IMG/VR virus record: IMGVR_UViG_3300018080_002750
Coordinates: 1-22,752 of that record
Direction: 5' to 3' (one strand)
Origin: a virus
Length of the DNA: 22,752 nt
Shown: in pieces, positions 5,647 through 22,487 of the stretch
Numbering within the stretch: position 1 is the first letter of the stretch
How the letters are laid out: every line of letters starts with the position of its first letter
Notes under the pieces: generated by a model
Seen by the model: only the letters and a program-made list of their open reading frames with translations
Databases searched by the model: none
What the model was told of the DNA's origin: nothing
Position numbers and translations under genes: made by a program

Positions 5647-7779
5647 ATGGCAGATAAAAGAGAAATAAAAAGTATTAGAAATCTTCTTAGTAAAAATAAA
5701 ATAACCTTAAATCAATTAAATAATATTATTAAAGGTGGAAAGGGAGTTAGTAAAAAAAATGATAGTATAATACGTCAGTATAATATTATAAGAGGTCCTA
5801 TTGGTAAAGGTGTACGTGGTATACAAGATTATAATAAAGAATCAAAAGCTAGAGCTAAATCAGAAGGTAGAAAAACAGGTTTAGCAGCTCGATTAGTACA
5901 TTCAGAATTAGACTTACAAGATAAAAAATTTATTAGTAAAGGCGATGTTTTAAGATTTAAAAATAAATATAACTTAAAAGATAAAGATTTATTGCGTATA
6001 GCTCAAGGTAATCCACAGACTGATCTTGAAAATAAAGTTTATCATGAAATAAAAAAAATATTTACCCCTGAAAAAATGAAACGACTTCCTAAGGGAGCAA
6101 GTAAAGAAGGTCCAAACGCTAAACTTTATAATGATTTAAGAGATTCTATGTCTGGTTCAGAATATACACAAGATCAACAAGATATAAATGAAGAAGCAGC
6201 TAAATCATTACAAGCAAATCAAGAACCAAATGTAACAACATTAGGAGCAGAAGATAATAAAGAACAAAGTCCATTAGAAGCAGATATTGAAAAAATATTA
6301 AATAAAGCTACAGGTGGTTCTCCTAAGATAAATAAAGCTATAGCAGAAAATATTCCACAAATTTATAACGCAATTCAACAATCAGGTTATGAACAAAGAC
6401 CACAATTTGGATCTCCAACTAATAGTAATTTATTACAGGCATATGATGAACTTGTTAATCGTATACGACCGGAGGAAAGTTCTGTATCAAAACTTGCAAG
6501 AAGATATCGTCCAGTAACAGAAGCTCTTGGAGGTATAGGTGGCAAAGTTGGTGGAGCTGCTCTTGGATCTGCTATTGGATTGCCTGGAATAGGTGGTGTA
6601 TTAGGAAGCGTATTAGGTGATTATGGAGCTAATAAATTAACTAATTATTTAACTCAAGAACAACCGGAATTTAAAACATTAGCAGATTTATTAAGAGGTG
6701 AAGAGGGTGGTTATATAAGAAGAGGAAGGCGTGGACTTGCAGATATAATTGCAGGAACACAAGGTCAATCATCTTTATTATCAAGATTACCTGGGATTGC
6801 AGCAAATGAAGCTAGAACTTCAATTTTAGCAAATATATTAAGATCTGCAGGAAAAACTGATATTGGTTCCACATTAGGATCAGCATCAAAATATTTAACT
6901 GGAGGAAAAACTGATATTGGTTCCACATTAGGATCAGCATCAAAATATTTAACTGGATATAATCCATTTGATTGGTTAAATCCATCTCAAAAAGTTCCAT
7001 TGACATTTCTTCAACGATTACGTGGAGCTGCTGCTGCACCAGTTCGTGGATTAGGAAATTTATTAGGTAGTAAAAATGCAGCAAGAAATTTAAGAACTGC
7101 ATTAGGTACAGCAGAAGGATTATATGATATTGGAAAAGCAACAGGAATAAATGATTGGATTGCAAATAAACTTGGATTTAAAAAATATACACCATTTTCA
7201 TATAGTGGTTTTGAAACAGGTGAACAACTAGCAAATCCAGTTATTACTAATGCATTACAACGTTCATTGCCATTTTTACAAGAACAATCAAGTAGATTAT
7301 TAGGCCGACCAGTTTCAGCACAAGAAGCATTAAGTGGTTTAAATGAGCAATTAGTAGATGTATTAACTCCACAAGTAATGCAACGAAATATAGAAAGATC
7401 TGGTGAAGGAATATCTAGAAAAAAAATACAACAACAAAGAAATATTCAACGTGCAAATAGAAAGGCTCAAATAGCAGAAATGCAATTACAACAAGCGCAA
7501 CAACAACAACAATTTGAAAATGCAGTAAATCTTGCAGCACAACGCGCAGAGGAAAATGAATTACAAGCAATATTAGGCGCAAGAGCTGGAAATTTACAAG
7601 CACAACAAGCAGTATTAGGGCAAAAGATAACTCCTAAACCTGCATTGCGTAGAACTGTACCTAAACAATCAAAACTTTGGAGAGTTGGAGAAGAGATAGG
7701 TAGAGTTACGGAACCAATAATAGGAAGAAAAATAGAGGAAGCTTTTAAAGTTAATCCTACTGTAGGTCCAAATAGTTAA
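5647..7779 (+). CDS. Internal virion / ejection protein with glycine zipper
   Basis: A 710-residue protein with a basic helical N-terminus (residues 1-150), an acidic Gln/Asn-rich middle, and a glycine-zipper hydrophobic segment at about 292-331 (GGIGGKVGGAALGSAIG...GVLGSVLGDYG) of the kind that can insert in membranes. An 18-residue unit, GKTDIGSTLGSASKYLTG, occurs twice in tandem at 402-419 and 420-437, with identical DNA. The C-terminal third has a strongly Gln-rich helical segment at about 595-650 (IQQQRNIQRANRKAQ, LQQAQQQQQF). Size and position fit a T7 gp15- or P22 gp20-like ejection protein that leaves the virion with the DNA. The assignment is by context and composition only. Confidence 0.6.
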   Translation: MADKREIKSIRNLLSKNKITLNQLNNIIKGGKGVSKKNDSIIRQYNIIRGPIGKGVRGIQDYNKESKARAKSEGRKTGLAARLVHSELDLQDKKFISKGDVLRFKNKYNLKDKDLLRIAQGNPQTDLENKVYHEIKKIFTPEKMKRLPKGASKEGPNAKLYNDLRDSMSGSEYTQDQQDINEEAAKSLQANQEPNVTTLGAEDNKEQSPLEADIEKILNKATGGSPKINKAIAENIPQIYNAIQQSGYEQRPQFGSPTNSNLLQAYDELVNRIRPEESSVSKLARRYRPVTEALGGIGGKVGGAALGSAIGLPGIGGVLGSVLGDYGANKLTNYLTQEQPEFKTLADLLRGEEGGYIRRGRRGLADIIAGTQGQSSLLSRLPGIAANEARTSILANILRSAGKTDIGSTLGSASKYLTGGKTDIGSTLGSASKYLTGYNPFDWLNPSQKVPLTFLQRLRGAAAAPVRGLGNLLGSKNAARNLRTALGTAEGLYDIGKATGINDWIANKLGFKKYTPFSYSGFETGEQLANPVITNALQRSLPFLQEQSSRLLGRPVSAQEALSGLNEQLVDVLTPQVMQRNIERSGEGISRKKIQQQRNIQRANRKAQIAEMQLQQAQQQQQFENAVNLAAQRAEENELQAILGARAGNLQAQQAVLGQKITPKPALRRTVPKQSKLWRVGEEIGRVTEPIIGRKIEEAFKVNPTVGPNS
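6849..6957 (+). repeat. Perfect 54-bp in-frame tandem duplication
   Basis: Two adjacent copies of a 54-base unit (period exactly 54) are identical at every base. They encode 18 residues each. Identity including third codon positions indicates a recent duplication inside the 710-residue gene, or a collapsed or expanded assembly unit. Confidence 0.9.
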
Positions 7780-12435: not shown

Positions 12436-15204
12436 ATGGCCATTAATGAATATCCTCAAACTTCGTATGGTTTTTCACAACCATTAGTTCAAAAAACAAA
12501 AGATCCATTAATTTATGATAGAGCACCTACGGTAAAAGATTTAACAGATTTAGCAAGACCATGGCTCGATAAGTCTACGGGAATATATTATATTTTAACA
12601 GCTAAATCTGGTAGTCCATTACAAGCAACTTGGACTGCTGTTGCAGACGCTACACCTGATGGCACCAATGGACAATTGTATATTGGCAGAACAGGTTTAA
12701 CACCTGTCTGGGCGAATTTAGCTACAGATGGAACAATTGGTATCACTGAAGGTGCTGGTACTATAACTCTTTCTGTTGTAGGTGCTACATCTGCTTCATT
12801 TGTTACTGATGCTGGTACTGCAACACCTCTAGCAGGCGTAACTCAATTTGCAGGTGGTACAAATATAAATACGGCTAGAACTGCTGTAAATCAGGTAACT
12901 ATAAATTTAGATGATGATGTTACATTAGTAGGTGCATTAACAGCAGGTACTTCAGTAACAGCAGGTGCAGATTTAACAATGACAACAGGTACCTGTACAA
13001 TTACATCAGATGATGACATTGCAGATTGTATTTACTTGCATGCAAACGCTGGAACCTCTGAGACAATTAGAATCAGAAGTGACCAAGGTACCGGTAATAA
13101 TTCTGTAACAGTAACTTCTGACGTTGGTTCTGTTAATATTAATTCTGGAAGAGCTGCTGCTAATGCAATAATACTTAATGCTTCAAATGCTGCTGGTGGT
13201 ATTGATGCAGATTATGGAACAGGTGCTTGTACATTTACTGGTGCTAATGGCGCATTTACAGTAATTACAGGTACAGGAGCCATCTCACTTGGCGCAGACG
13301 CTGCTGCAAAAACTATCACAATAGGTAACTCTACAGGTGCAACCGCTATTACATGTGATGTAGGAACCGGAGATGCTAAGTTTGGTACAACAGCAACTGC
13401 TCACGATACCTATTTAGGATCGACCACAACAACTGCAGGAACAATTGTACAGTCTGGTACAGGAGATGTGACAATAACGTCTACAGATGCAATTTTTGCT
13501 GATGCTACAGGTGTTCTTGAGCTTAATTCTTCAGCAGGTGTTATAGGAATTGGTAATGATGCAGTAAACCAAAATATCAATGTTGGTACTGCTGGTAATA
13601 GAACAGTAACCATGGGCGTGACGGGTGGAACAACAAGTGTTGCCTTAGATTCTGGTTCAGGTGGAACAGCTCTTAGTTCTGATGGAATAATCTCTTCTAG
13701 TTCTACAGGAGCAACAACACTAGATTCATCAGGAAATATGGAAATAAATTCATCTGCCGGTTTGGTCCAGATTGCGCATGATAATATTGATCAAAATGTA
13801 AATATTGCAACAGCAGGTAATCGAACAGTAACTATTGGTTTAACGGGTGGAACAAGTACTTTAAGTTGTAATTCTGGTTCAGGTGGAACAACAATAACAT
13901 CTGACGGAACAACAGATATAGACTCAGTTGGTGCTTTAGCGATTAATTCTGATGCTACTATTTCTATTGCTACTGATGCAGATAATCAAGATGTAGATAT
14001 TGCTACAGCTGGTAATAGAACAATAAGTATTGGTGTGGCTGGTGGAACGAGTACTCTTAATTTAGATTCTGGTTCAGGTGGTACAGCTATAAATTCAGAT
14101 GGAACTATAGAGATTCATAGTACTAATATACTTTCATTAAATTCTGATGCTACTATAAATCTCGGAAGTGATGGAGATGATCAAGCGGTGAATATTGCCA
14201 CTGCTGGTAATAGAACAGTAAGTATAGGGGCAACTGGTGGAACAACAAGTATTGCATTAGATTCTGGTTCAGGAAATACAGCGTTGAATTCTGATGGAAC
14301 AACAACAATTGATGCTACTGGTAATGTTGAAATAAATTCAACTGCATTAGTTCAAATTGCACATGATGCAATTGATCAAAATGTAAACATTGCTACAGCT
14401 GGTAATAGAACGGTAAGTATAGGGGCAACTGGTGGAACAAGTACTCTAGTATTAGATTCTGGTTCTGGTGGCACAACAATAACTTCAGACGGTACAACAT
14501 TTATAGATTCTGTTGGTGCTCTAGCTATTAATTCTAATGCAACTATTTCTATTGCTACTGATGCGGATGATCAAAATGTATCAATTGCAACTGCAGGTAA
14601 TCGAACTATAAGTTTAGGTGTGGCTGGTGGAACGAGTACTCTTAATTTAGATTCTGGTTCAGGCGGTACAGCTATGGATACTGATGGGACGTTTGCTATT
14701 GCGGCTACAGGTGCTATTTCTGCTGATTCCACAGGCGGTGCAATCAATATAGCAACTGGAGCAAATGCTCAAGATGTAAATGTTTGTACGGGTGCAGCAG
14801 CACGTAATTTAGTGGCAGGAAGTACAAACACAACATCATCTACAACAATTCAAGCTGGTACAGGTGGTATTGCTCTTAATGCTTCTGGTATAGCTACAGT
14901 AGAGCCAGCTACGGCAACTGCTGCTGGTGTAGCTCTTACAATTGATGCTAATGTTGGGTGGGCAATATTTACAGGTCAAACAACTGCTGCAGCAGCTCAA
15001 GTAACTTTAACTATAACAAATAGTATATGTACTGCTGATTCTGTAATATTAGCAACTGTTTCTAATAAGGGTGCAAATGATGCAAGAATGACATTAGAAC
15101 GTGTGAAACCAGCGGCAGGATCATTTACATTAGATCTTCAAAATAATGGAGCAGCGGCTCTTAATGGAGATATTGTAGTAGCATTTTGGATCTTGAAAGC
15201 GTAA
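12436..15204 (+). CDS. Repeat-built long tail fiber protein
   Basis: A 922-residue protein made almost only of Gly, Thr, Ser, Ala, Ile, Asn and Asp, as expected for a beta-helical or trimeric beta fiber. Residues about 1-75 are a distinct N-terminal part (probable virion attachment). Residues 79-115 form an IG...G..PVWA.L..GTI.I module also seen in the 531-residue fiber. The centre carries six clear copies of a unit containing VNIATAGNRTVSIG.TGGT and LDSGSGG, spaced 195 bases (65 residues) apart except the first at 222. The C-terminus from about 815 is non-repetitive (NVGWAIFTGQTTAAAA..., closing FWILKA) and is probably the receptor-binding or trimerisation tip. An AGGAG site precedes the ATG. 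Confidence 0.8.
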   Translation: MAINEYPQTSYGFSQPLVQKTKDPLIYDRAPTVKDLTDLARPWLDKSTGIYYILTAKSGSPLQATWTAVADATPDGTNGQLYIGRTGLTPVWANLATDGTIGITEGAGTITLSVVGATSASFVTDAGTATPLAGVTQFAGGTNINTARTAVNQVTINLDDDVTLVGALTAGTSVTAGADLTMTTGTCTITSDDDIADCIYLHANAGTSETIRIRSDQGTGNNSVTVTSDVGSVNINSGRAAANAIILNASNAAGGIDADYGTGACTFTGANGAFTVITGTGAISLGADAAAKTITIGNSTGATAITCDVGTGDAKFGTTATAHDTYLGSTTTTAGTIVQSGTGDVTITSTDAIFADATGVLELNSSAGVIGIGNDAVNQNINVGTAGNRTVTMGVTGGTTSVALDSGSGGTALSSDGIISSSSTGATTLDSSGNMEINSSAGLVQIAHDNIDQNVNIATAGNRTVTIGLTGGTSTLSCNSGSGGTTITSDGTTDIDSVGALAINSDATISIATDADNQDVDIATAGNRTISIGVAGGTSTLNLDSGSGGTAINSDGTIEIHSTNILSLNSDATINLGSDGDDQAVNIATAGNRTVSIGATGGTTSIALDSGSGNTALNSDGTTTIDATGNVEINSTALVQIAHDAIDQNVNIATAGNRTVSIGATGGTSTLVLDSGSGGTTITSDGTTFIDSVGALAINSNATISIATDADDQNVSIATAGNRTISLGVAGGTSTLNLDSGSGGTAMDTDGTFAIAATGAISADSTGGAINIATGANAQDVNVCTGAAARNLVAGSTNTTSSTTIQAGTGGIALNASGIATVEPATATAAGVALTIDANVGWAIFTGQTTAAAAQVTLTITNSICTADSVILATVSNKGANDARMTLERVKPAAGSFTLDLQNNGAAALNGDIVVAFWILKA
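13594..14790 (+). repeat. Coding repeat array, 65-residue unit with ABC-ABC order
   Basis: The glycine codon of the TAGNRT motif occurs at 13594, 13816, 14011, 14206, 14401 and 14596, giving spacings of 222, 195, 195, 195 and 195 bases. A degraded seventh copy lies near 14770-14791. Units 1 and 4, 2 and 5, and 3 and 6 resemble each other most; for example SVGALAIN follows units 2 and 5, and LVQIAHD precedes units 2 and 5. This indicates a duplicated three-unit block. Confidence 0.85.
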
Positions 15205-15255: not shown

Positions 15256-15606
15256 ATGAACGCATATACATTTCAAGCTGCTGAACGTGGTTGGATGGAA
15301 CCAGCTAAAACATTAGATACAGCAGTAACGCCAGTAGGGGCCAATTATGTTGCAGTAGGAACAGCATTAGAGCATCCATGTAGAATTGATTCAATATATA
15401 ATTTTAGTGATGCAGATTTATGGGTAAGTCTAGATGGTATAGAAGATCATTTTCCAGTGAAAAAAAATGGTGGGTCTGTTACTGATAATGCTGCTAATGG
15501 TATTGTATTCCCTATTGGAACTAGATTTTATGTTAAATCACTTGTTGCTGGTACAAACCCAACAGCTGGTTTAGTTACTGTATCATCTTCTTATAAAGTA
15601 TTATAG
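15256..15606 (+). CDS. Small beta-rich virion protein
   Basis: A 116-residue, Val/Ala/Thr-rich protein. A recognisable pattern, LDTAVTPVGANYVAVGTALEHP then CRIDSIYNFSDADLWVSLDG and FPIGTRFYVKS, is one I associate with small beta-sandwich proteins encoded beside phage fiber genes; their function is not known to me. The start follows GAAGGAAT, and the TAG stop is fused to the SD of the next gene. Likely a fiber-associated or capsid decoration subunit, acting extracellularly on the virion. Confidence 0.65.
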   Translation: MNAYTFQAAERGWMEPAKTLDTAVTPVGANYVAVGTALEHPCRIDSIYNFSDADLWVSLDGIEDHFPVKKNGGSVTDNAANGIVFPIGTRFYVKSLVAGTNPTAGLVTVSSSYKVL

Positions 15607-15614
15607 GAGAGATT

Positions 15615-17210
15615 ATGTCACAGATTGTAACTAGTTTTATAGAATCATTAGCAATAACAAATTTAACTGGAGCTACAGATCATGCTCTAGTTGTTGGTGC
15701 TGCAGATGGTTCATTAACATCTTTAGGTGTTGCTGGAAATGGCGTTTTGCCAATAGGTAGTATTGGTGCAGATCCTGTTTTAGCTACTTTAACGGCAGGA
15801 ACTAATATTAATATTGCTAATAATCCTGGTAATATAACCATATCTGCTATAGGTGGTGGTATAGGACCAGAATTTGAAGATGATGTCTTTAGAGTTGTTG
15901 ATAATGCTGATAATACAGCTAAATTAGCATTTGAATGTGATCAAATTACTACTGGTACTGAACGTATAATTACTATGTGTGATCAGGATTTAAGTTTTAT
16001 TAATCCTTCGTTTCCAGGTGATGTAACTTGTGGAACTGGTTTAACTGTGACAACAGGTGATTTAGAAGTATCAGCAGGAAATCTTGGTATACCAGACACT
16101 AATGCAGCATTCACTCAAGGTATATTTACTATGGGTGGATCATTATTTATGCATAATTTAGGAGTCAACAATACATTTTTAGGTTATTTAGCTGGAAGTG
16201 CAATTAATAATGGAACAAATAATACTTCTATAGGTTCAAATAGTTTAGAAAATATTGATGATGGCACTTTTAATACATTTGTTGGTAGCTCTGCTGGATT
16301 AAATATAAGAGATGGATCGCTTAATGTTGGTATTGGTGCACCAGCGTTATCATTTTTAACAACAGGAGAATTAAATGTTGTTTTAGGTGCTGGCTCAGGT
16401 ATAAATTATACGAGTTCTGAATCATCAAATATATTAATATCTAATGATGGTGTAATTGGTGATGATAATGTTATAAGAATAGGTACACAAGGATCTGGAG
16501 CTGGGGAACAAGATAATTGTTTTATAGCTGGTATTTATGGTAATACAGTTGCTACACCATCTATGGTTGTTATAGATTCTAATGGTGAATTAGGAACAAC
16601 TTCTATATCTCCAATTAATGAATTTCAAGATAGTGATTTTAGGATCTATGATAATGGTGACAATACTAAGAAAATAGCATTTGAAGCTAGTGCAATATCT
16701 GCAGGAACTGTACGTACTATCACAATGGATGATCGTGATATTGATATGGATGCAGTAGCAACAACATATTCTACTGATTCAACAGATGCTACAGCGGCAG
16801 CAGGAACTATTACTATAGCTGGATCAGGTGCAGTTTCTACTTCAGGTGCTGGTAGTACAGTAACGATAGCAAGCACAAGTCTTGTTTGGAATGAAGTTAC
16901 TGGAACATCTCAAGCAGCAGCTGTAAACAATGGATATATAACGAATAATGCTGGATTAGTCACGGTTACTTTACCTTCAACCGCAGCAGTTGGCTCTGTA
17001 GTTAGAGTTGCAGGTCTTGGAGCTGGTGGCTGGAGTATTGCTCAAAATGCTTCACAGTATATCAGAATGAATGAATCTGAAGTTACTACTACAGGTGTTG
17101 GTGGTTCTATGAGCTCAACAGATGATTATGATGCAATTGAATTACTCTGTGTTGTTGCTAATAATGGCTGGTCCGTAGTTAATGCTAAAGGTAATATTTC
17201 ATACGTCTAG
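15615..17210 (+). CDS. Multi-module tail fiber with YadA-like beta-roll and shared C-terminal head
   Basis: The 531 residues divide into modules. Residues 41-81 are an IG...G..PV.A.LT.GTNI.I module, shared with the 922-residue fiber. Residues 87-128 are an FRVVDN.DNTAKLAFE...RIITM.D.D module. At 186-262 there are repeated NTFLG..AG, NTSIGSNSL, NTFVGSSAG, NVGIGAPAL and NVVLGAGSG units, as in the left-handed beta-roll of YadA-type adhesin heads. Residues 300-329 have CFIAGIYGNT...VVIDSNGELGT, a motif that often ends such rolls. Residues 338-380 are a second copy of the DFRIYDN.DNTKKIAFE module. Residues 424-531 are a head domain (NGYI.NNAGLVTVTLP, GGWSIAQNASQYI, CVVANNGW) shared with two neighbours. 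It is probably a trimeric receptor-binding fiber. Confidence 0.8.
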   Translation: MSQIVTSFIESLAITNLTGATDHALVVGAADGSLTSLGVAGNGVLPIGSIGADPVLATLTAGTNINIANNPGNITISAIGGGIGPEFEDDVFRVVDNADNTAKLAFECDQITTGTERIITMCDQDLSFINPSFPGDVTCGTGLTVTTGDLEVSAGNLGIPDTNAAFTQGIFTMGGSLFMHNLGVNNTFLGYLAGSAINNGTNNTSIGSNSLENIDDGTFNTFVGSSAGLNIRDGSLNVGIGAPALSFLTTGELNVVLGAGSGINYTSSESSNILISNDGVIGDDNVIRIGTQGSGAGEQDNCFIAGIYGNTVATPSMVVIDSNGELGTTSISPINEFQDSDFRIYDNGDNTKKIAFEASAISAGTVRTITMDDRDIDMDAVATTYSTDSTDATAAAGTITIAGSGAVSTSGAGSTVTIASTSLVWNEVTGTSQAAAVNNGYITNNAGLVTVTLPSTAAVGSVVRVAGLGAGGWSIAQNASQYIRMNESEVTTTGVGGSMSSTDDYDAIELLCVVANNGWSVVNAKGNISYV

Positions 17211-17219
17211 GAGTAATAT

Positions 17220-17864
17220 ATGGCGGTATTTAATTGTATAAATGATAGCTCTTCAGGGCTATATATTCTAGATGATACAGATATTACTAAAGTATTAACA
17301 TTTGATACCTCTGGAATAACAACTGCAACAACAAGAACATGGACTGCTGATGATAGAGACATAGACTTTGACGCAGTAGCTACAACTTATACTACAGATT
17401 CAGGAGACGGAACGGCTTCAAGTGGTACTCTTTCAATAGTTGGATCAGGAACAGTTTCAACCTCAGCAACGGGAAGTACTGTAACTATTACAGGAACTGG
17501 TGGCGGAACAGGTGGTGTGACTAGCTGGGTAATATTGACAGGTGGTGAAAGTCAACCATATTCGTTGAGTGTTAATACTGGATATATATGTACATCAGCA
17601 TCTAACTTTACAGCTGTATTGCCAACTACATCTAGTGTTGGAGACATTATTAGAATATCTGAGTTTAGTAGTTTAAGATCTGTTCAAATTAATCAAAATG
17701 CTAGTCAATATATTATTGGTGTAAGTGGCACTACAACAACTGGCACAGGTGGATATTTGCTTACTAATTCCACAGACAGAACTTCTATAGAATTAGTTTG
17801 TCATGTTGCAAATACCGGTTGGGTAATAATAAGTGATAATAGTGGTACGTATGCATTAAATTAG
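17220..17864 (+). CDS. Short tail fiber with shared head domain (paralogue 1)
   Basis: This 214-residue protein corresponds to the last third of the 531-residue fiber. Residues 15-52 are the DDTDITKVLTFDTSGI...RTWTADDRDIDFDAV module, 53-98 a Thr/Ser/Gly neck, and 103-214 a head with NTGYICTSASNFTAVLP, QINQNASQYIIG, TGTGGYL and CHVANTGWVI. The N-terminus MAVFNCINDSSSGLYI is nearly the same as that of the 203-residue protein, which suggests a common docking peptide. The start follows TAGGAG. It has no upstream beta-roll, so it would make a short spike. Compared with its paralogues the head is more diverged in the strand around 145-157, which could be a receptor-contact region (inference). Confidence 0.75.
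   Translation: MAVFNCINDSSSGLYILDDTDITKVLTFDTSGITTATTRTWTADDRDIDFDAVATTYTTDSGDGTASSGTLSIVGSGTVSTSATGSTVTITGTGGGTGGVTSWVILTGGESQPYSLSVNTGYICTSASNFTAVLPTTSSVGDIIRISEFSSLRSVQINQNASQYIIGVSGTTTTGTGGYLLTNSTDRTSIELVCHVANTGWVIISDNSGTYALN
17331..17359 (+). repeat. 29-bp identical block shared by two fiber genes, copy 1
   Basis: Identical to 18205-18233. It encodes the TRTWTADDR part of the shared module, while the surrounding sequence has diverged at many synonymous sites. A possible recombination or gene-conversion patch. Confidence 0.8.
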
Positions 17865-17872
17865 GAGATATT

Positions 17873-18094
17873 ATGAGTTTAGGATTAGTTGGTGCAATAA
17901 TAGTTGGTGTTTCATTAATTGTGGGAGCAGTATCAACTATTATTATTAAGAAAAAAGATAATATAGTTGAACAAGTTGCAGAGAAGATAATAAAAGCTGA
18001 AACGGGATTAGATATAGACTTTACTCCTGAAGAGCAAGAAAAACTTAAACAAGAAGAGCGCGACTATAAAGCTTCTAAGATTGAGGAAGAATAA
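17873..18094 (+). CDS. Small single-TM phage protein
   Basis: This 73-residue protein has one strong transmembrane segment at about 3-24 (LGLVGAIIVGVSLIVGAVSTIII), then KKK, then a charged helical tail with NIVEQVAEKIIKAETGLDIDFTPEEQEK. The tail pattern, E..AE..IK..TG.DIDFTP, recurs in small phage proteins of unknown function that I have seen elsewhere, so I regard the gene as real. The positive-inside rule places the tail in the cytoplasm. A holin or another inner-membrane role is possible but unproven. The stop TAA overlaps the next ATG by one base (TAATG), so it is translationally coupled to a fiber gene. Confidence 0.7.
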   Translation: MSLGLVGAIIVGVSLIVGAVSTIIIKKKDNIVEQVAEKIIKAETGLDIDFTPEEQEKLKQEERDYKASKIEEE

Positions 18095-18705
18095 TGCCTG
18101 TATTTAATACTATAAATGATAGCTCTACAGGATTATTTATCCTGGATGATACTGATATAACTAAAGTTCTCTCCTTTGATGTCTCTGGAATTACTACAGC
18201 TACCACAAGAACATGGACTGCTGATGATAGAGATATAGATTTTGACGCAGTTCCTACTTCTATTACAACTGACTCAGGCACTTGTACACCAGCTAGTGGG
18301 TCATTTTCAATTGTGGGATCAGGAGCAACTACATCAGCTTCAGGATCTACAATAACGATTACTGCGGCTGGCGGTGGAATATCATGGTCAGAAATTACAG
18401 GAACCTCACAAGCTGCTGCTGTAGATACGGGTTACATTGCAAATAATGCAGGTTTAGTTACTATTACTCTTCCAGATACTGCAGCTTTAGGCTCAGTAAT
18501 AGAAGTAGTTGGCAAAGGTGCTGGTAAGTTCAAAATAGCTCAAAATGCTGGTGAGACAATATATTTTGGTAGTTCTAGTACAACGACTGGCGTAGGTGGT
18601 TCTCTTACCGCAGACATCCAATATGGTGCTCTTAAGATGGTATGTATAACGGCTGATACGGATTGGGTAGTAGCTAGCTCATCTGGTAATTTTACAATTG
18701 TTTAA
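18094..18705 (+). CDS. Short tail fiber with shared head domain (paralogue 2)
   Basis: A 203-residue paralogue of the 214-residue protein. The docking peptide MPVFNTINDSSTGLFI and the DDTDITKVLSFDVSGI...TADDRDIDFDAV module (15-53) are followed by a Thr/Ser/Gly neck. The head at 96-203 contains ITGTSQAAAVDTGYIANNAG, VTITLPDTAALGS, KFKIAQNAGETIYFG and DWVVASSSGN. The head is closer to that of the 531-residue fiber than to that of the 214-residue protein, while the N-terminus is closer to the latter, so the gene looks like a mosaic of the two. It starts inside the stop of the 73-residue gene. Confidence 0.75.
   Translation: MPVFNTINDSSTGLFILDDTDITKVLSFDVSGITTATTRTWTADDRDIDFDAVPTSITTDSGTCTPASGSFSIVGSGATTSASGSTITITAAGGGISWSEITGTSQAAAVDTGYIANNAGLVTITLPDTAALGSVIEVVGKGAGKFKIAQNAGETIYFGSSSTTTGVGGSLTADIQYGALKMVCITADTDWVVASSSGNFTIV
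18205..18233 (+). repeat. 29-bp identical block shared by two fiber genes, copy 2
   Basis: Second copy of the block at 17331-17359, lying in the equivalent codons of the 203-residue fiber gene. Confidence 0.8.
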
Positions 18706-18719: not shown

Positions 18720-18878
18720 GTGCCTTGGAAAGTTGCAAATAAAAAAACTAAAAAGGGATGGCCTATATACAAGAAAGAAAATGGCCGTTGGAAAGTTGTT
18801 GGATATTCTACTTCTAAAGCTAAGGCACAGGCAAGCGTAAGAGCTCGTTATGCGTCTGAGCACGGAGGATTAAAGTGA
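18720..18878 (+). CDS. Small basic conserved-type phage protein (52 residues, GTG start)
   Basis: The reading frame from GTG at 18720 to TGA at 18878 encodes 52 residues beginning PWKVANKKTKKGWPIYKK, then GRWKVVGYSTSKAKAQASVR and ARYASEHGGLK. The shape is a short basic beta hairpin (WPIY...RWKVVG) followed by a helix with SKAKAQA..RA.YA. Many phages and some large viruses carry a small protein of this type, with a W-rich hairpin and a KA.AQ.RALYA helix; its function is not established to my knowledge. A perfect AGGAG lies upstream, and the last bases GTGA overlap the GTG start of the next gene by four. This coupling and the codon pattern make it convincing despite its size. Confidence 0.75.
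   Translation: MPWKVANKKTKKGWPIYKKENGRWKVVGYSTSKAKAQASVRARYASEHGGLK
18864..18868 (+). promoter_or_regulatory. Ribosome site fixing the second GTG start
   Basis: GGAGG plus ATTAAA spacer precedes the GTG at 18875. The spacer is the same six bases as at 18714-18719. The site lies inside the 3' end of the 52-residue gene, as expected for coupled translation. Confidence 0.7.
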
Positions 18879-19531
18879 GCAAGATAAATAGTATAGATAA
18901 TAAGAGTTCTGCTCTTACAATTGATCCTGGTGCGTCTGGTGATTCATTCGTACAGTTTGATATTAATACTACTGGTAAGTTTAGGATTGGTGTTGATGAT
19001 ACTGATTCTGATGCATTTGTTATTTCTCAAGGATCGGCTCTTGGAACTGATAATACATTTAGAATGTCGGCTGCAGGTGAATGTACAATGCCATTACAAT
19101 CAGCATTCAGTGGCTATTTAAGTTCTACAGCTTCAAATGTTACTGGAGATGGTACGCAGTATACAGTTGCCTTTGATACAGAGGTATTTGATCAGAATAA
19201 TGATTTTAATACTGGAACTTATACTTTTGAAGCGCCAGTTACTGGACGATATAATTTTAACTTTACTGTAAAATATAATGATATTGGTGTAGGGCATACG
19301 GGAGCATGGTTCTGGTTAGTAACTAGTAATCGTACACATCCAGTTGGTAGATTTAATCCGACATCATGTGATGTTAGTGGTGACGTTTCTTATTCTAATG
19401 TAACAGTTGCGGATATGGATGCTTCTGATACTGCATATTTAGTAGCTACTGTAAATAGTAGCACTTTAACAGTAGACGTTGAAGGTGGTGGAAATATGGA
19501 AACGAGGTTTGGTGGTTTTTTAATATGTTAG
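18875..19531 (+). CDS. C1q-like tail fiber protein (paralogue A)
   Basis: A 218-residue protein from a GTG start. Residues 1-41 are a docking segment (INSIDNKSSALTIDPGASGDSFVQFDIN..GKFRIGVDD). Residues 42-75 are a neck with ISQGSALGTDNTFRMSAAGE.TMPLQ. Residues 76-218 have the layout of a C1q/TNF-like jelly roll: SAFSGYLSS, VAFDTEVFDQN.DFNTGTYTFEAPVTGRYNF, then further strands and an ADMDASDTAYLV segment, closing FGGFLIC. C1q-like heads form trimers, so the product is probably a short trimeric spike that contacts the host surface. It is the most diverged of three tandem paralogues at the N-terminus. The stop is fused to the SD of the next gene. Confidence 0.8.
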   Translation: MSKINSIDNKSSALTIDPGASGDSFVQFDINTTGKFRIGVDDTDSDAFVISQGSALGTDNTFRMSAAGECTMPLQSAFSGYLSSTASNVTGDGTQYTVAFDTEVFDQNNDFNTGTYTFEAPVTGRYNFNFTVKYNDIGVGHTGAWFWLVTSNRTHPVGRFNPTSCDVSGDVSYSNVTVADMDASDTAYLVATVNSSTLTVDVEGGGNMETRFGGFLIC

Positions 19532-19538
19532 GAGCATT

Positions 19539-20198
19539 ATGGCGATAAATACAATAAATAATAATTCAGGAGAGCTGACTATAAATCCAGGTGCTTCAGG
19601 TGACAGTTTTATTCAATTCGATATTAATGGTACCGGAGAATTTCGTATAGGTGTAGATGACACTGACGATTCATTTAGAATATCTCAAGGTTCAGCTTTA
19701 GGAACTAATGATACATTTGTTATGTCTTCAGCGGGTGAATGTACTATGCCTTTACAGCCAGCATTTCTTGCTTACAACTCTACAGATGATACCAATGTAA
19801 CTGGTGACGCTACTTTATATCAATGTGAGTTTGATACAGAAATATTTGATCAAAATGATGACTATGATAATACGACTGATACATTTATAGCACCAATTAC
19901 TGGACGATATCTTCTTTATGCACAAGTTGGAGTATTAGGGATTGTGTCAGACCATGGAGGTGGTTATTTGCGTATTAATACTAGCAACATGGATTATTTA
20001 GTAAATGCATGTGATCCATACGCAACTATGTATCAAACTGCTGGAGATCAGCTTGCGATGAAGTATTTTTGTCTTGTAGATATGGATGCATCAGATACCG
20101 CAATAGTTAATTTATCTATTGATGGTACATCTAAAGTAGCAGATGTTGATGGAGCTGCAACGGTCGCAACAAGATTTTGTGGTTATTTAGCGGTATAG
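19539..20198 (+). CDS. C1q-like tail fiber protein (paralogue B)
   Basis: A 219-residue paralogue with the docking segment INTINNNSGELTINPGASG.., the IGVDDTDDSFRISQGSALG neck and a C1q-like head from about 74 (PAFLAYNS, EFDTEIFDQNDDYDN..., FIAPITGRYLLYAQ, DMDASDTAIV, closing FCGYLAV). The first about 40 codons are almost identical in DNA to those of the next gene, while the heads differ strongly. That is the expected pattern if the tip varies and the attachment end is fixed. Cysteines at several head positions differ between paralogues. It begins after TTAGGAG and ends in a TAGGAA junction. Confidence 0.8.
   Translation: MAINTINNNSGELTINPGASGDSFIQFDINGTGEFRIGVDDTDDSFRISQGSALGTNDTFVMSSAGECTMPLQPAFLAYNSTDDTNVTGDATLYQCEFDTEIFDQNDDYDNTTDTFIAPITGRYLLYAQVGVLGIVSDHGGGYLRINTSNMDYLVNACDPYATMYQTAGDQLAMKYFCLVDMDASDTAIVNLSIDGTSKVADVDGAATVATRFCGYLAV
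19544..19660 (+). repeat. 117-bp near-identical fiber anchor module, copy 1
   Basis: Matches 20214-20330 at 116 of 117 bases; the single change (T at 19562, C at 20232) is synonymous. Encodes the docking segment of two C1q-like proteins. Confidence 0.9.
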
Positions 20199-20205
20199 GA
20201 AAATT

Positions 20206-20871
20206 ATGGCAAAGATAAATACAATAAATAACAATTCAGGAGAGCTGACTATAAATCCAGGTGCTTCAGGTGACAGTTTTATTCAATTCGATATTAATGG
20301 TACCGGAGAATTTCGTATAGGTGTAGATGATAATGATTCAGATAAATTTAAGATATCGCAAGGCTCTACATTAGGATCAAATGATACATTTACAATAACA
20401 GCATCAGGTGAGCGAACTATGCCTTTACAGTCAGCAGTTCATGCATATCTTAATACAGAGGCTAGCAATATTACTGGTGATGGTACTACATGGACATGCG
20501 CTTTAGAAAGCGAACGATTTGATCAGAATGGTGATTATAATACAAGTACCTATACATTTATAGCTCCAGTTACGGGACGGTACCTTGTAACAGCCTTTCT
20601 TGAATTTAAAGGCCTTACATCATCACATACAACAGGCTTGTTGGAATGTGTTACAAGTAATAGAACATATCTGTTTGATTATTTAAATTCATATGCAGCA
20701 GGACATGGTAACAGTGTTATTACTCATCATGGTGTGTGTTTTGCTGATATGGATGCGTCAGACACATTAACTATTGAGTGCACCATATCAGGGGGCACGA
20801 AAGTAGTTGATGCATATGGAATTACCGGTAGTGTTGAAAGAACCAATTTATGTGTATATTTAGTATGTTAG
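20206..20871 (+). CDS. C1q-like tail fiber protein (paralogue C)
   Basis: A 221-residue paralogue with the same docking segment as the preceding gene, a variant neck (DDNDSDKFKISQGSTLGSNDTFTITASGER) and a C1q-like head from about 75 (SAVHAYLNT, CALESERFDQNGDYNTSTYTFIAPVTGRYL, ADMDASDTLTIECT, closing CVYLVC). The neck and head framework are closer to paralogue A than to B in places (TSNRTY, NTSTYTF), whereas the anchor is closer to B, so the gene looks mosaic. It starts after TAGGAA, and its TAG stop is followed directly by AAGGAAT, the ribosome site of the next gene. Confidence 0.8.
   Translation: MAKINTINNNSGELTINPGASGDSFIQFDINGTGEFRIGVDDNDSDKFKISQGSTLGSNDTFTITASGERTMPLQSAVHAYLNTEASNITGDGTTWTCALESERFDQNGDYNTSTYTFIAPVTGRYLVTAFLEFKGLTSSHTTGLLECVTSNRTYLFDYLNSYAAGHGNSVITHHGVCFADMDASDTLTIECTISGGTKVVDAYGITGSVERTNLCVYLVC
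20214..20330 (+). repeat. 117-bp near-identical fiber anchor module, copy 2
   Basis: Second copy of 19544-19660, offset by exactly 670 bases. Identity stops sharply at codon GAC/GAT of the VDD motif, where the neck begins to differ. Confidence 0.9.
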
Positions 20872-20881
20872 AAGGAATATT

Positions 20882-21181
20882 ATGAAAATCGCAGTAGATG
20901 GAATAGATTTATTTGAGTTAACAGATATTCAGAAGAAAGTTATTAAGAATGATATCTGTTGTGATAAATTTGATGAAGACGTGAAGCGCAGATTGTTTTA
21001 TATAATCAATCATAAATATGAACAATGCTTTAAAAGGTTAAAAGCTGAATGGGAGCCAAAATTAGCTGCTCGTGGAGTTAAGTCTCTTCCTACTGATAAG
21101 GATGAGTTTGCTAACTTAGTGTTTGCTCAAGAGGATTATAAAGATAGAGCTGCAAGGGATGCAGAAAGTAAAATAGTTTAA
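20882..21181 (+). CDS. Small phage protein of unknown function at end of fiber operon
   Basis: A 99-residue, mostly helical and charged protein with a short beta start (MKIAVDGIDLFELTDIQKKVIKNDI). It contains DEDVKRRLFYIINHKYEQCFKRLKAEWEPKLAARG, then SLPTDKDEFANLVFAQEDYKDRAARD. The ELT..QK.VIKNDI and YKDRAARD parts look like a conserved phage family that I have seen annotated only as hypothetical. It is the last gene of the plus-strand operon, lies ten bases after the third C1q gene, and is followed by a strong hairpin. It might be a fiber-assembly helper or a minor virion protein; the sequence does not decide this. Confidence 0.7.
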   Translation: MKIAVDGIDLFELTDIQKKVIKNDICCDKFDEDVKRRLFYIINHKYEQCFKRLKAEWEPKLAARGVKSLPTDKDEFANLVFAQEDYKDRAARDAESKIV

Positions 21182-21692: not shown

Positions 21693-22487
21693 TTATAAAA
21701 ATTTCTTTTTTTCTGTTTCTATATATTCCACTAGTTTATCGAATAGGCTTTTTGGGCATTCTTCAAAGGGTCGACTTCCAAGTATATTTTTTCGTATTTT
21801 CTCTCTTATGTCTGCCCAACCTTTTAATTCGCTATCTAAGAATTCTATTTCTGATGCAGAGAGCATTTTAATTGTTTCTGGTGGTTTTGGTTTACTTTGT
21901 ATATTATTGTTCTTCTGTGTTTGAATTTGTTGTTTAAGTTTTGGTTGGTAATTAGTTTTATGAATATTGTTTTTATTATAGTGCTTATTGGTTTCATTTG
22001 TTTTCTCAGGTGGATTTCCATCATTTTCTATAACATCGTCATTGATTGATATACCTAATAATCCTTGTAGTGAGTATCGTCTATGGTATGAGAGTGCGCT
22101 TCCATATGCTTGGATCATAGTTTTATTCATTGTATCTGCAATTACTTCTGTTAGAGATGATATATATTGTCCGCTAGAATGTCGTAGTTTTGTTCTAATA
22201 TATTTTTCTCCATTAATTTTTTCTTCGTTAGATGATATTGAAAAGCCGTTAGCTGCAAGGTGTGGTCTTGCCATTGTCATGATATCATCATAATCAGCGT
22301 ATTTACTTTTAAATCTAGGATTTTTTTTTGTTGGTATTACGGTTGTGAACTCACCCTGCATTTTACATAATGCAGGGCATAGTTTATCTAGACAGTCACT
22401 TTCAAGTTTTTCAGTATTGTTTATTTTTTCTCTAGCATCGATAACAGCATTTATAATTTCAATTAGATCTGCTTTATTTATTTCCAT
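21693..22487 (-). CDS. erf: ERF-family single-strand annealing recombination protein
   Basis: A 264-residue protein with a clear ERF-superfamily core at about 35-155: a hydrophobic helix with LCPALCKMQGEF, FKSKYADYDDIMTMARPHLAANGFSI, LRHSSGQYISS, and the hallmark YGSALSYHRRYSLQGLLGI followed by an acidic NDDV. ERF proteins bind single-stranded DNA and anneal complementary strands during phage recombination and genome circularisation. Residues about 157-205 are an Asn/Lys/Gln-rich linker, and 208-264 form a helical C-terminal domain (FLDSELKGWADIREKI...LFDKLVEYIETEKKKFL) that may interact with SSB or host partners (inference). The ribosome site AAAGGAAAG overlaps the end of the upstream gene. 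Transcription is opposite to the late operon, which fits an early gene. Confidence 0.85.
   Translation of the reverse strand: MEINKADLIEIINAVIDAREKINNTEKLESDCLDKLCPALCKMQGEFTTVIPTKKNPRFKSKYADYDDIMTMARPHLAANGFSISSNEEKINGEKYIRTKLRHSSGQYISSLTEVIADTMNKTMIQAYGSALSYHRRYSLQGLLGISINDDVIENDGNPPEKTNETNKHYNKNNIHKTNYQPKLKQQIQTQKNNNIQSKPKPPETIKMLSASEIEFLDSELKGWADIREKIRKNILGSRPFEECPKSLFDKLVEYIETEKKKFL

Follow-up and report, generated by a model that had tools for sequence, protein, structure and literature searches.

The data comprised one assembled contig, a 22,752-base phage record, which is called the window below. A cluster of fibre genes runs from position 12,436 onward, and its last members are three tandem genes, A, B and C (Table 1). 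The initial annotation had described two neighbouring C1q genes. The pair that it named, B and C, is real, but with A upstream the array consists of three tandem genes. A tail-protein match at 1188-2180 and virion/tailspike matches at 15615 both had counterparts in contigs G001 and G021. The array lies in a tailed phage, within a cluster of tail and fibre genes. Between two fibre genes of this cluster, positions 17873-18094 encode a protein of 73 aa with what looks like a membrane segment; its counterparts in G021 and G001 show 70-79% identity. A pattern search for relatives of the gene at 15256 (116 aa) found none. The small gene that adjoins the array showed 69% identity to its counterpart in G020, a phage with a distant backbone, and 50% to that in G021. 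Several array contigs contain relatives of this gene. So do L309 and L310, whose examined stretches yielded no stem gene.

Table 1. Features of the C1q array and its neighbourhood in the window
Feature	Positions	Strand	Description
Fibre gene A	18875-19531	+	218 aa, GTG start; stem and C1q head
Fibre gene B	19539-20198	+	219 aa; stem and C1q-like head
Shared tract in B	19544-19660	+	codes for about residues 3-41
Neck of B	19661-19762	+	one-codon-deleted haplotype, DTD-DSFRISQGSALGTND
Fibre gene C	20206-20871	+	221 aa; stem and C1q-like head
Shared tract in C	20214-20330	+	codes for about residues 4-42
Small gene adjoining the array	20882-21181	+	99 aa
ERF-family single-strand annealing protein	21693-22487	-	PF04404, E = 3.8e-20

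The C1q identity that had been assigned to B and C was borne out by their predicted folds but not by profile matching. The Pfam C1q profile matched A above the cut-off (E = 7.9e-7) and B below it (E = 0.0016), while C was not listed at all; 24 of the 50 aligned family members had such a match. C matched phrog_15750 (E = 2e-10). AlphaFold models of B (pLDDT 89.5) and C (pLDDT 90.6) both show an unordered N-terminus, followed by two hairpins and then a beta-sandwich head. When the models were compared with solved C1QL heads by Foldseek, the E-values were 2e-8 for B and 1.4e-8 for C, and the B model matched viral C1q proteins with E-values down to 3e-19. In these models, the heads of both proteins are C1q folds. 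We found that the module of residues ~12 to 76 also occurs centrally in longer fibre proteins, where it directly precedes C1q-like heads. Thus, "stem" is a safer name for it than "anchor", the term used before. The A, B and C proteins are putative virion fibres that would bind receptors.

An exact comparison of the tract in B with that in C showed that 116 of the 117 bases are identical. The sole mismatch, at 19562, is silent (AAT/AAC) and is followed by an exact run of 98 bases. No other ungapped 117-base match anywhere in the window scores as high. At the 5′ edge, B and C have their start codons in common, and C has an extra Lys codon directly before the tract. At the 3′ edge, the match ends sharply at 19661, just past the first predicted hairpin of B (E23-29/E32-40). 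Beyond this point the DNA identity of B and C is ~74% in the neck (codons 41-73) and 56% in the head; the amino-acid identity is 100% in the tract, 67% in codons 41-73 and 41% in the head. The near-identity of the two 5′ ends, the abrupt divergence after them and the strong difference between the heads had all been described correctly in the initial annotation. The stem of A shows ~65% DNA identity to the stems of B and C.

Strong selection on the stem, at the protein or the DNA level, could in principle keep two stems alike with no recent exchange, and no other part of the family is as conserved as the stem, whose mean amino-acid identity between phages is 66%, compared with 40% for heads. 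However, this is contradicted by the silent codons. In the tract, 37 of the 40 codons for which B and C encode the same amino acid are identical, compared with 48 of 78 elsewhere in the pair (Fisher test, P = 2e-4). In the same segment of A and B, only 12 of 30 such codons are identical (P = 2e-6). Other pairs within genomes had 555 identical codons among 1102 (~50%), which gives a binomial tail of 1e-8 for the B/C tract. As the silent codons are far more alike in this tract, neither protein nor DNA constraint explains it, and we regard selection alone as a highly improbable source. The likeness of the tract is, as its silent sites indicate, that of a recent common DNA history and not that of protein conservation. 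B and C, a pair named beforehand, gave P = 0.007 in a codon-run scan, and this significance was lost after correction over 39 pairs. The silent-codon tests were preferred to a permutation scan for runs of identity, which spread the tract across the whole stem. The tract thus shows what is expected of gene conversion: within paralogues that are older, the identity begins and stops abruptly and extends to silent sites.

The array was compared with its relatives in a set of 28 contigs, one of them the window, which together have 60 such genes. Tandem arrays of two or three copies occur in every contig except three. The heads match by position: A, B and C correspond to genes 1, 2 and 3 of L004 and to genes 1, 2 and 3 of L018, and the same positional correspondence was seen between L005 and L008 and between L010 and L014. 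In quartet AU tests, heads grouped by position in 10 of 10 four-gene sets, with P values of ~0.03 or lower for grouping by genome in all of them. For the B/C stem, tested with L004, grouping was by genome, and grouping by position was rejected (P = 0.009). The L010/L014 stems also grouped by genome (by position, P = 0.013, or 0.0008 when the neck was added), and this pair is a second case of stem homogenization. The stem quartets were decided for these two pairs; the remaining stems are short. The B/C stem is about equally similar to L004_2 and L004_3. Because heads follow array position while the B/C stems follow the genome, the split between B and C is old.

A recent duplication of one gene, as proposed in the initial annotation, was thus not supported by the heads. 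Neither similarity over the whole gene nor a sister relation of the heads was found: the head of C is nearer to the third genes, L004_3 and L018_3, and a quartet test rejected B and C as sister heads (P = 0.005). C grouped with these third genes in a nine-gene head tree (88-92% bootstrap) and in the 60-gene head tree (support 97). When a B+C clade was enforced in the latter, the lnL was 20 lower and the clade was not rejected (P = 0.147). The evidence for an old split therefore comes from the smaller tests and from branch support. A positional stem clade was likewise not rejected in the 60-gene stem tree (P = 0.205). The regions flanking the tract have an older history that conflicts with that of the tract, although the conflict is weaker in the 60-gene trees.

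It is also conceivable that B or C was recently duplicated and that the neck and head of the copy were then replaced by those of a third-position gene from another phage. The common stem would then be a remnant of the duplication. Movement of array cassettes between phages is indeed seen, and L006 and L083 have tandem copies whose heads are related. However, we consider this course unlikely. It needs more events, since the same head order is already present in the three-gene arrays of L004 and of L018, whose backbone is close to that of the window, and it leaves the old third gene unexplained. The three-gene order in relatives also speaks against an assembly artefact, by which two strains or a collapsed repeat would have put the stem of B on C. 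Such an artefact must be considered for a single metagenome contig, in which an exact repeat of ~100 bases is near common k-mer sizes. Nevertheless, one base differs between the two tracts, an extra codon adjoins that of C, and loss of a gene would be a likelier outcome of a collapse than a copied stem, which together make this source improbable. No match to the B protein or to the tail protein was found in the INPHARED phage collection, none was found in the GTDB genomes, and a scan of IMG/VR with a degenerate stem pattern found no near-identical strain.

The initial annotation had regarded the attachment end as a fixed part, and had named anchors that evolve independently in each gene as evidence against exchange. 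Such independence was not found for B and C. As a general rule within each phage, however, the common stem did not hold: 12 of the 60 stems cluster by genome, against 15 of the 60 heads. Stems being no more clustered by genome than heads, we rejected concerted evolution of stems across the family.

Mosaic junctions, which had been predicted for relatives, were seen in other contigs, both between stem and head and between neck and head. L004_1 and L018_1 reverse the usual pattern, with heads 67% and stems 45% alike. The one-codon neck deletion is present in 12 of 60 genes, namely B, L004_3 and ten others, which are scattered across the head tree. It required 12 changes on this tree for 12 carriers, and the expectation after shuffling was ~11. 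These observations suggest that in this group stem, neck and head evolve as separate units. Variable heads on conserved stems are also the usual target pattern of dedicated diversity systems, such as diversity-generating retroelements or inversions. That such a system acts on the array seems most unlikely: the copies are direct and not inverted, the conserved part is the 5′ end while the heads differ throughout, and no reverse transcriptase was recognized among the window proteins searched, which represent part of the open frames.

The history of the C1q array differs from that of the backbone, and the nearest backbone relatives carry less similar C1q genes. In G021 and G001, the tail protein shows 74-79% identity to that of the window and the C1q genes about 40-61%. 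Comparatively, the tail proteins of G020 show 28-40% identity and its C1q genes 58-63%. Comparison of these sequences suggests that the array passes as a whole from one phage backbone to another. In G021 (which carries L018) and in G008, the contig was opened within a C1q gene and each of its ends holds part of that gene, as is expected of circular maps.

An ERF annealing protein encoded about 1 kb away had been proposed as the driver of the exchange. The gene is real, its near end lies ~0.8 kb from C, and such a role is plausible; a specific tie to the array or to phages with the tract was not found. The protein is 61-62% identical to those of G001 and G021. ERF was present in 25 of the 28 contigs of the array set, but 12 of 13 tail-protein relatives that do not belong to this set have it as well. 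As ERF runs through the whole phage lineage, we rejected its co-occurrence as evidence, and its nearness to the array is no evidence for a role either. This ERF protein could still be the exchange enzyme. The Erf protein of phage D3, one of the Rad52-like phage recombinases, matched Red-beta in efficiency on diverged DNA (PMC3945230). Our phage has an ERF gene too, and its link to the tract is a proposal.

Considering the uniform stem, the differing heads and the mosaics in relatives, the part of the initial annotation that invoked homologous exchange or gene conversion between neighbouring paralogues is supported. In our opinion, A, B and C are quite probably old tandem paralogues, each with a C1q-type head behind a short stem module, and the stem of B or C was recently overwritten over ~117 bases by that of the other in a conversion-type event. 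This event would have been a homologous, non-reciprocal exchange, most simply between the two copies within one genome or between replicating copies within one cell. It seems to have started just past the start codon and to have halted between the first and second stem hairpins, which would have left neck and head untouched. In the longer term, recombination within and between phages might act on stems, necks and heads separately, so that two or three heads on compatible stems persist in each phage. The conversion mechanism, as well as any benefit of the exchange, is what we infer. A further idea, which we hold to be doubtful, is that tandem C1q arrays are a built-in shuffling device, in which repeated conversion renews the stem identity of neighbours and so enables ERF-mediated joining. 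If it were true, the annealing protein of the phage could join any stem to any head or alter the copy number, and many head combinations would exist within one phage population.

The exchange of fibre parts is a familiar theme among phages. The distal tail fibre locus of T-even phages reportedly swaps adhesin specificity through conserved motifs (Tetart 1998, cited in PMC7468147). There, as here, conserved segments are the homology for exchange of recognition tips, although tips are exchanged between phages in that locus and a stem was probably copied between tandem genes in ours.

Marine pelagiphages have metaviromic islands with C1q genes whose heads are replaced while the N-terminal part is better conserved (PMC3909814), and in cryoconite phages C1q genes were reported as interchanging modules (PMC7468147). 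These islands share with our array the C1q head, the conserved N-terminal part, natural replacement of heads and tail fibre neighbours. However, what was described there is variation of a C1q gene from strain to strain, whereas the present case has tandem genes, two or three in number, and a tract that was probably copied from one neighbour to the other within a genome. Ackermannviridae tailspikes, of which native and added copies recombined in the laboratory through shared domains, also include several paralogues with common 5′ ends per genome, tsp1-4 (PMC11414711). Those are large tailspikes with known assembly domains, unlike the small C1q fibres here, in which the attachment end is putative. 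Our literature search for gene conversion between phage fibre paralogues found no paper that combined all of these terms. The locus is a clear but ordinary example of part mixing among phage fibre genes, with the tandem C1q arrays and the copied tract as its particular features. It offers a case, supported by silent sites, of recent exchange between neighbouring recognition genes in one phage, and the relatives allow conversion to be told from duplication. Both the separate units and the movement of the array bear on the prediction of host range from sequence.

Other repeated sequences were also observed in the window. A second pair of fibre genes, at 17220-17864 and 18094-18705, resembles B and C in pattern: in DNA, their first 60 codons are ~80% identical and their heads ~45%. 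The head of the gene at 18094 is closer to the C-terminal domain of 15615-17210. A six-copy repeat array (13549-14689) with a spacing of mostly 195 bases lies in the large fibre gene 12436-15204. Two of its copies, at 13957 and 14542, lie 585 bases apart and agree at 104 of 117 bases, so these repeats may also be homogenized. A 54-base tandem duplication at 6845-6952, with 98% identity, lies inside the open frame 5647-7779.
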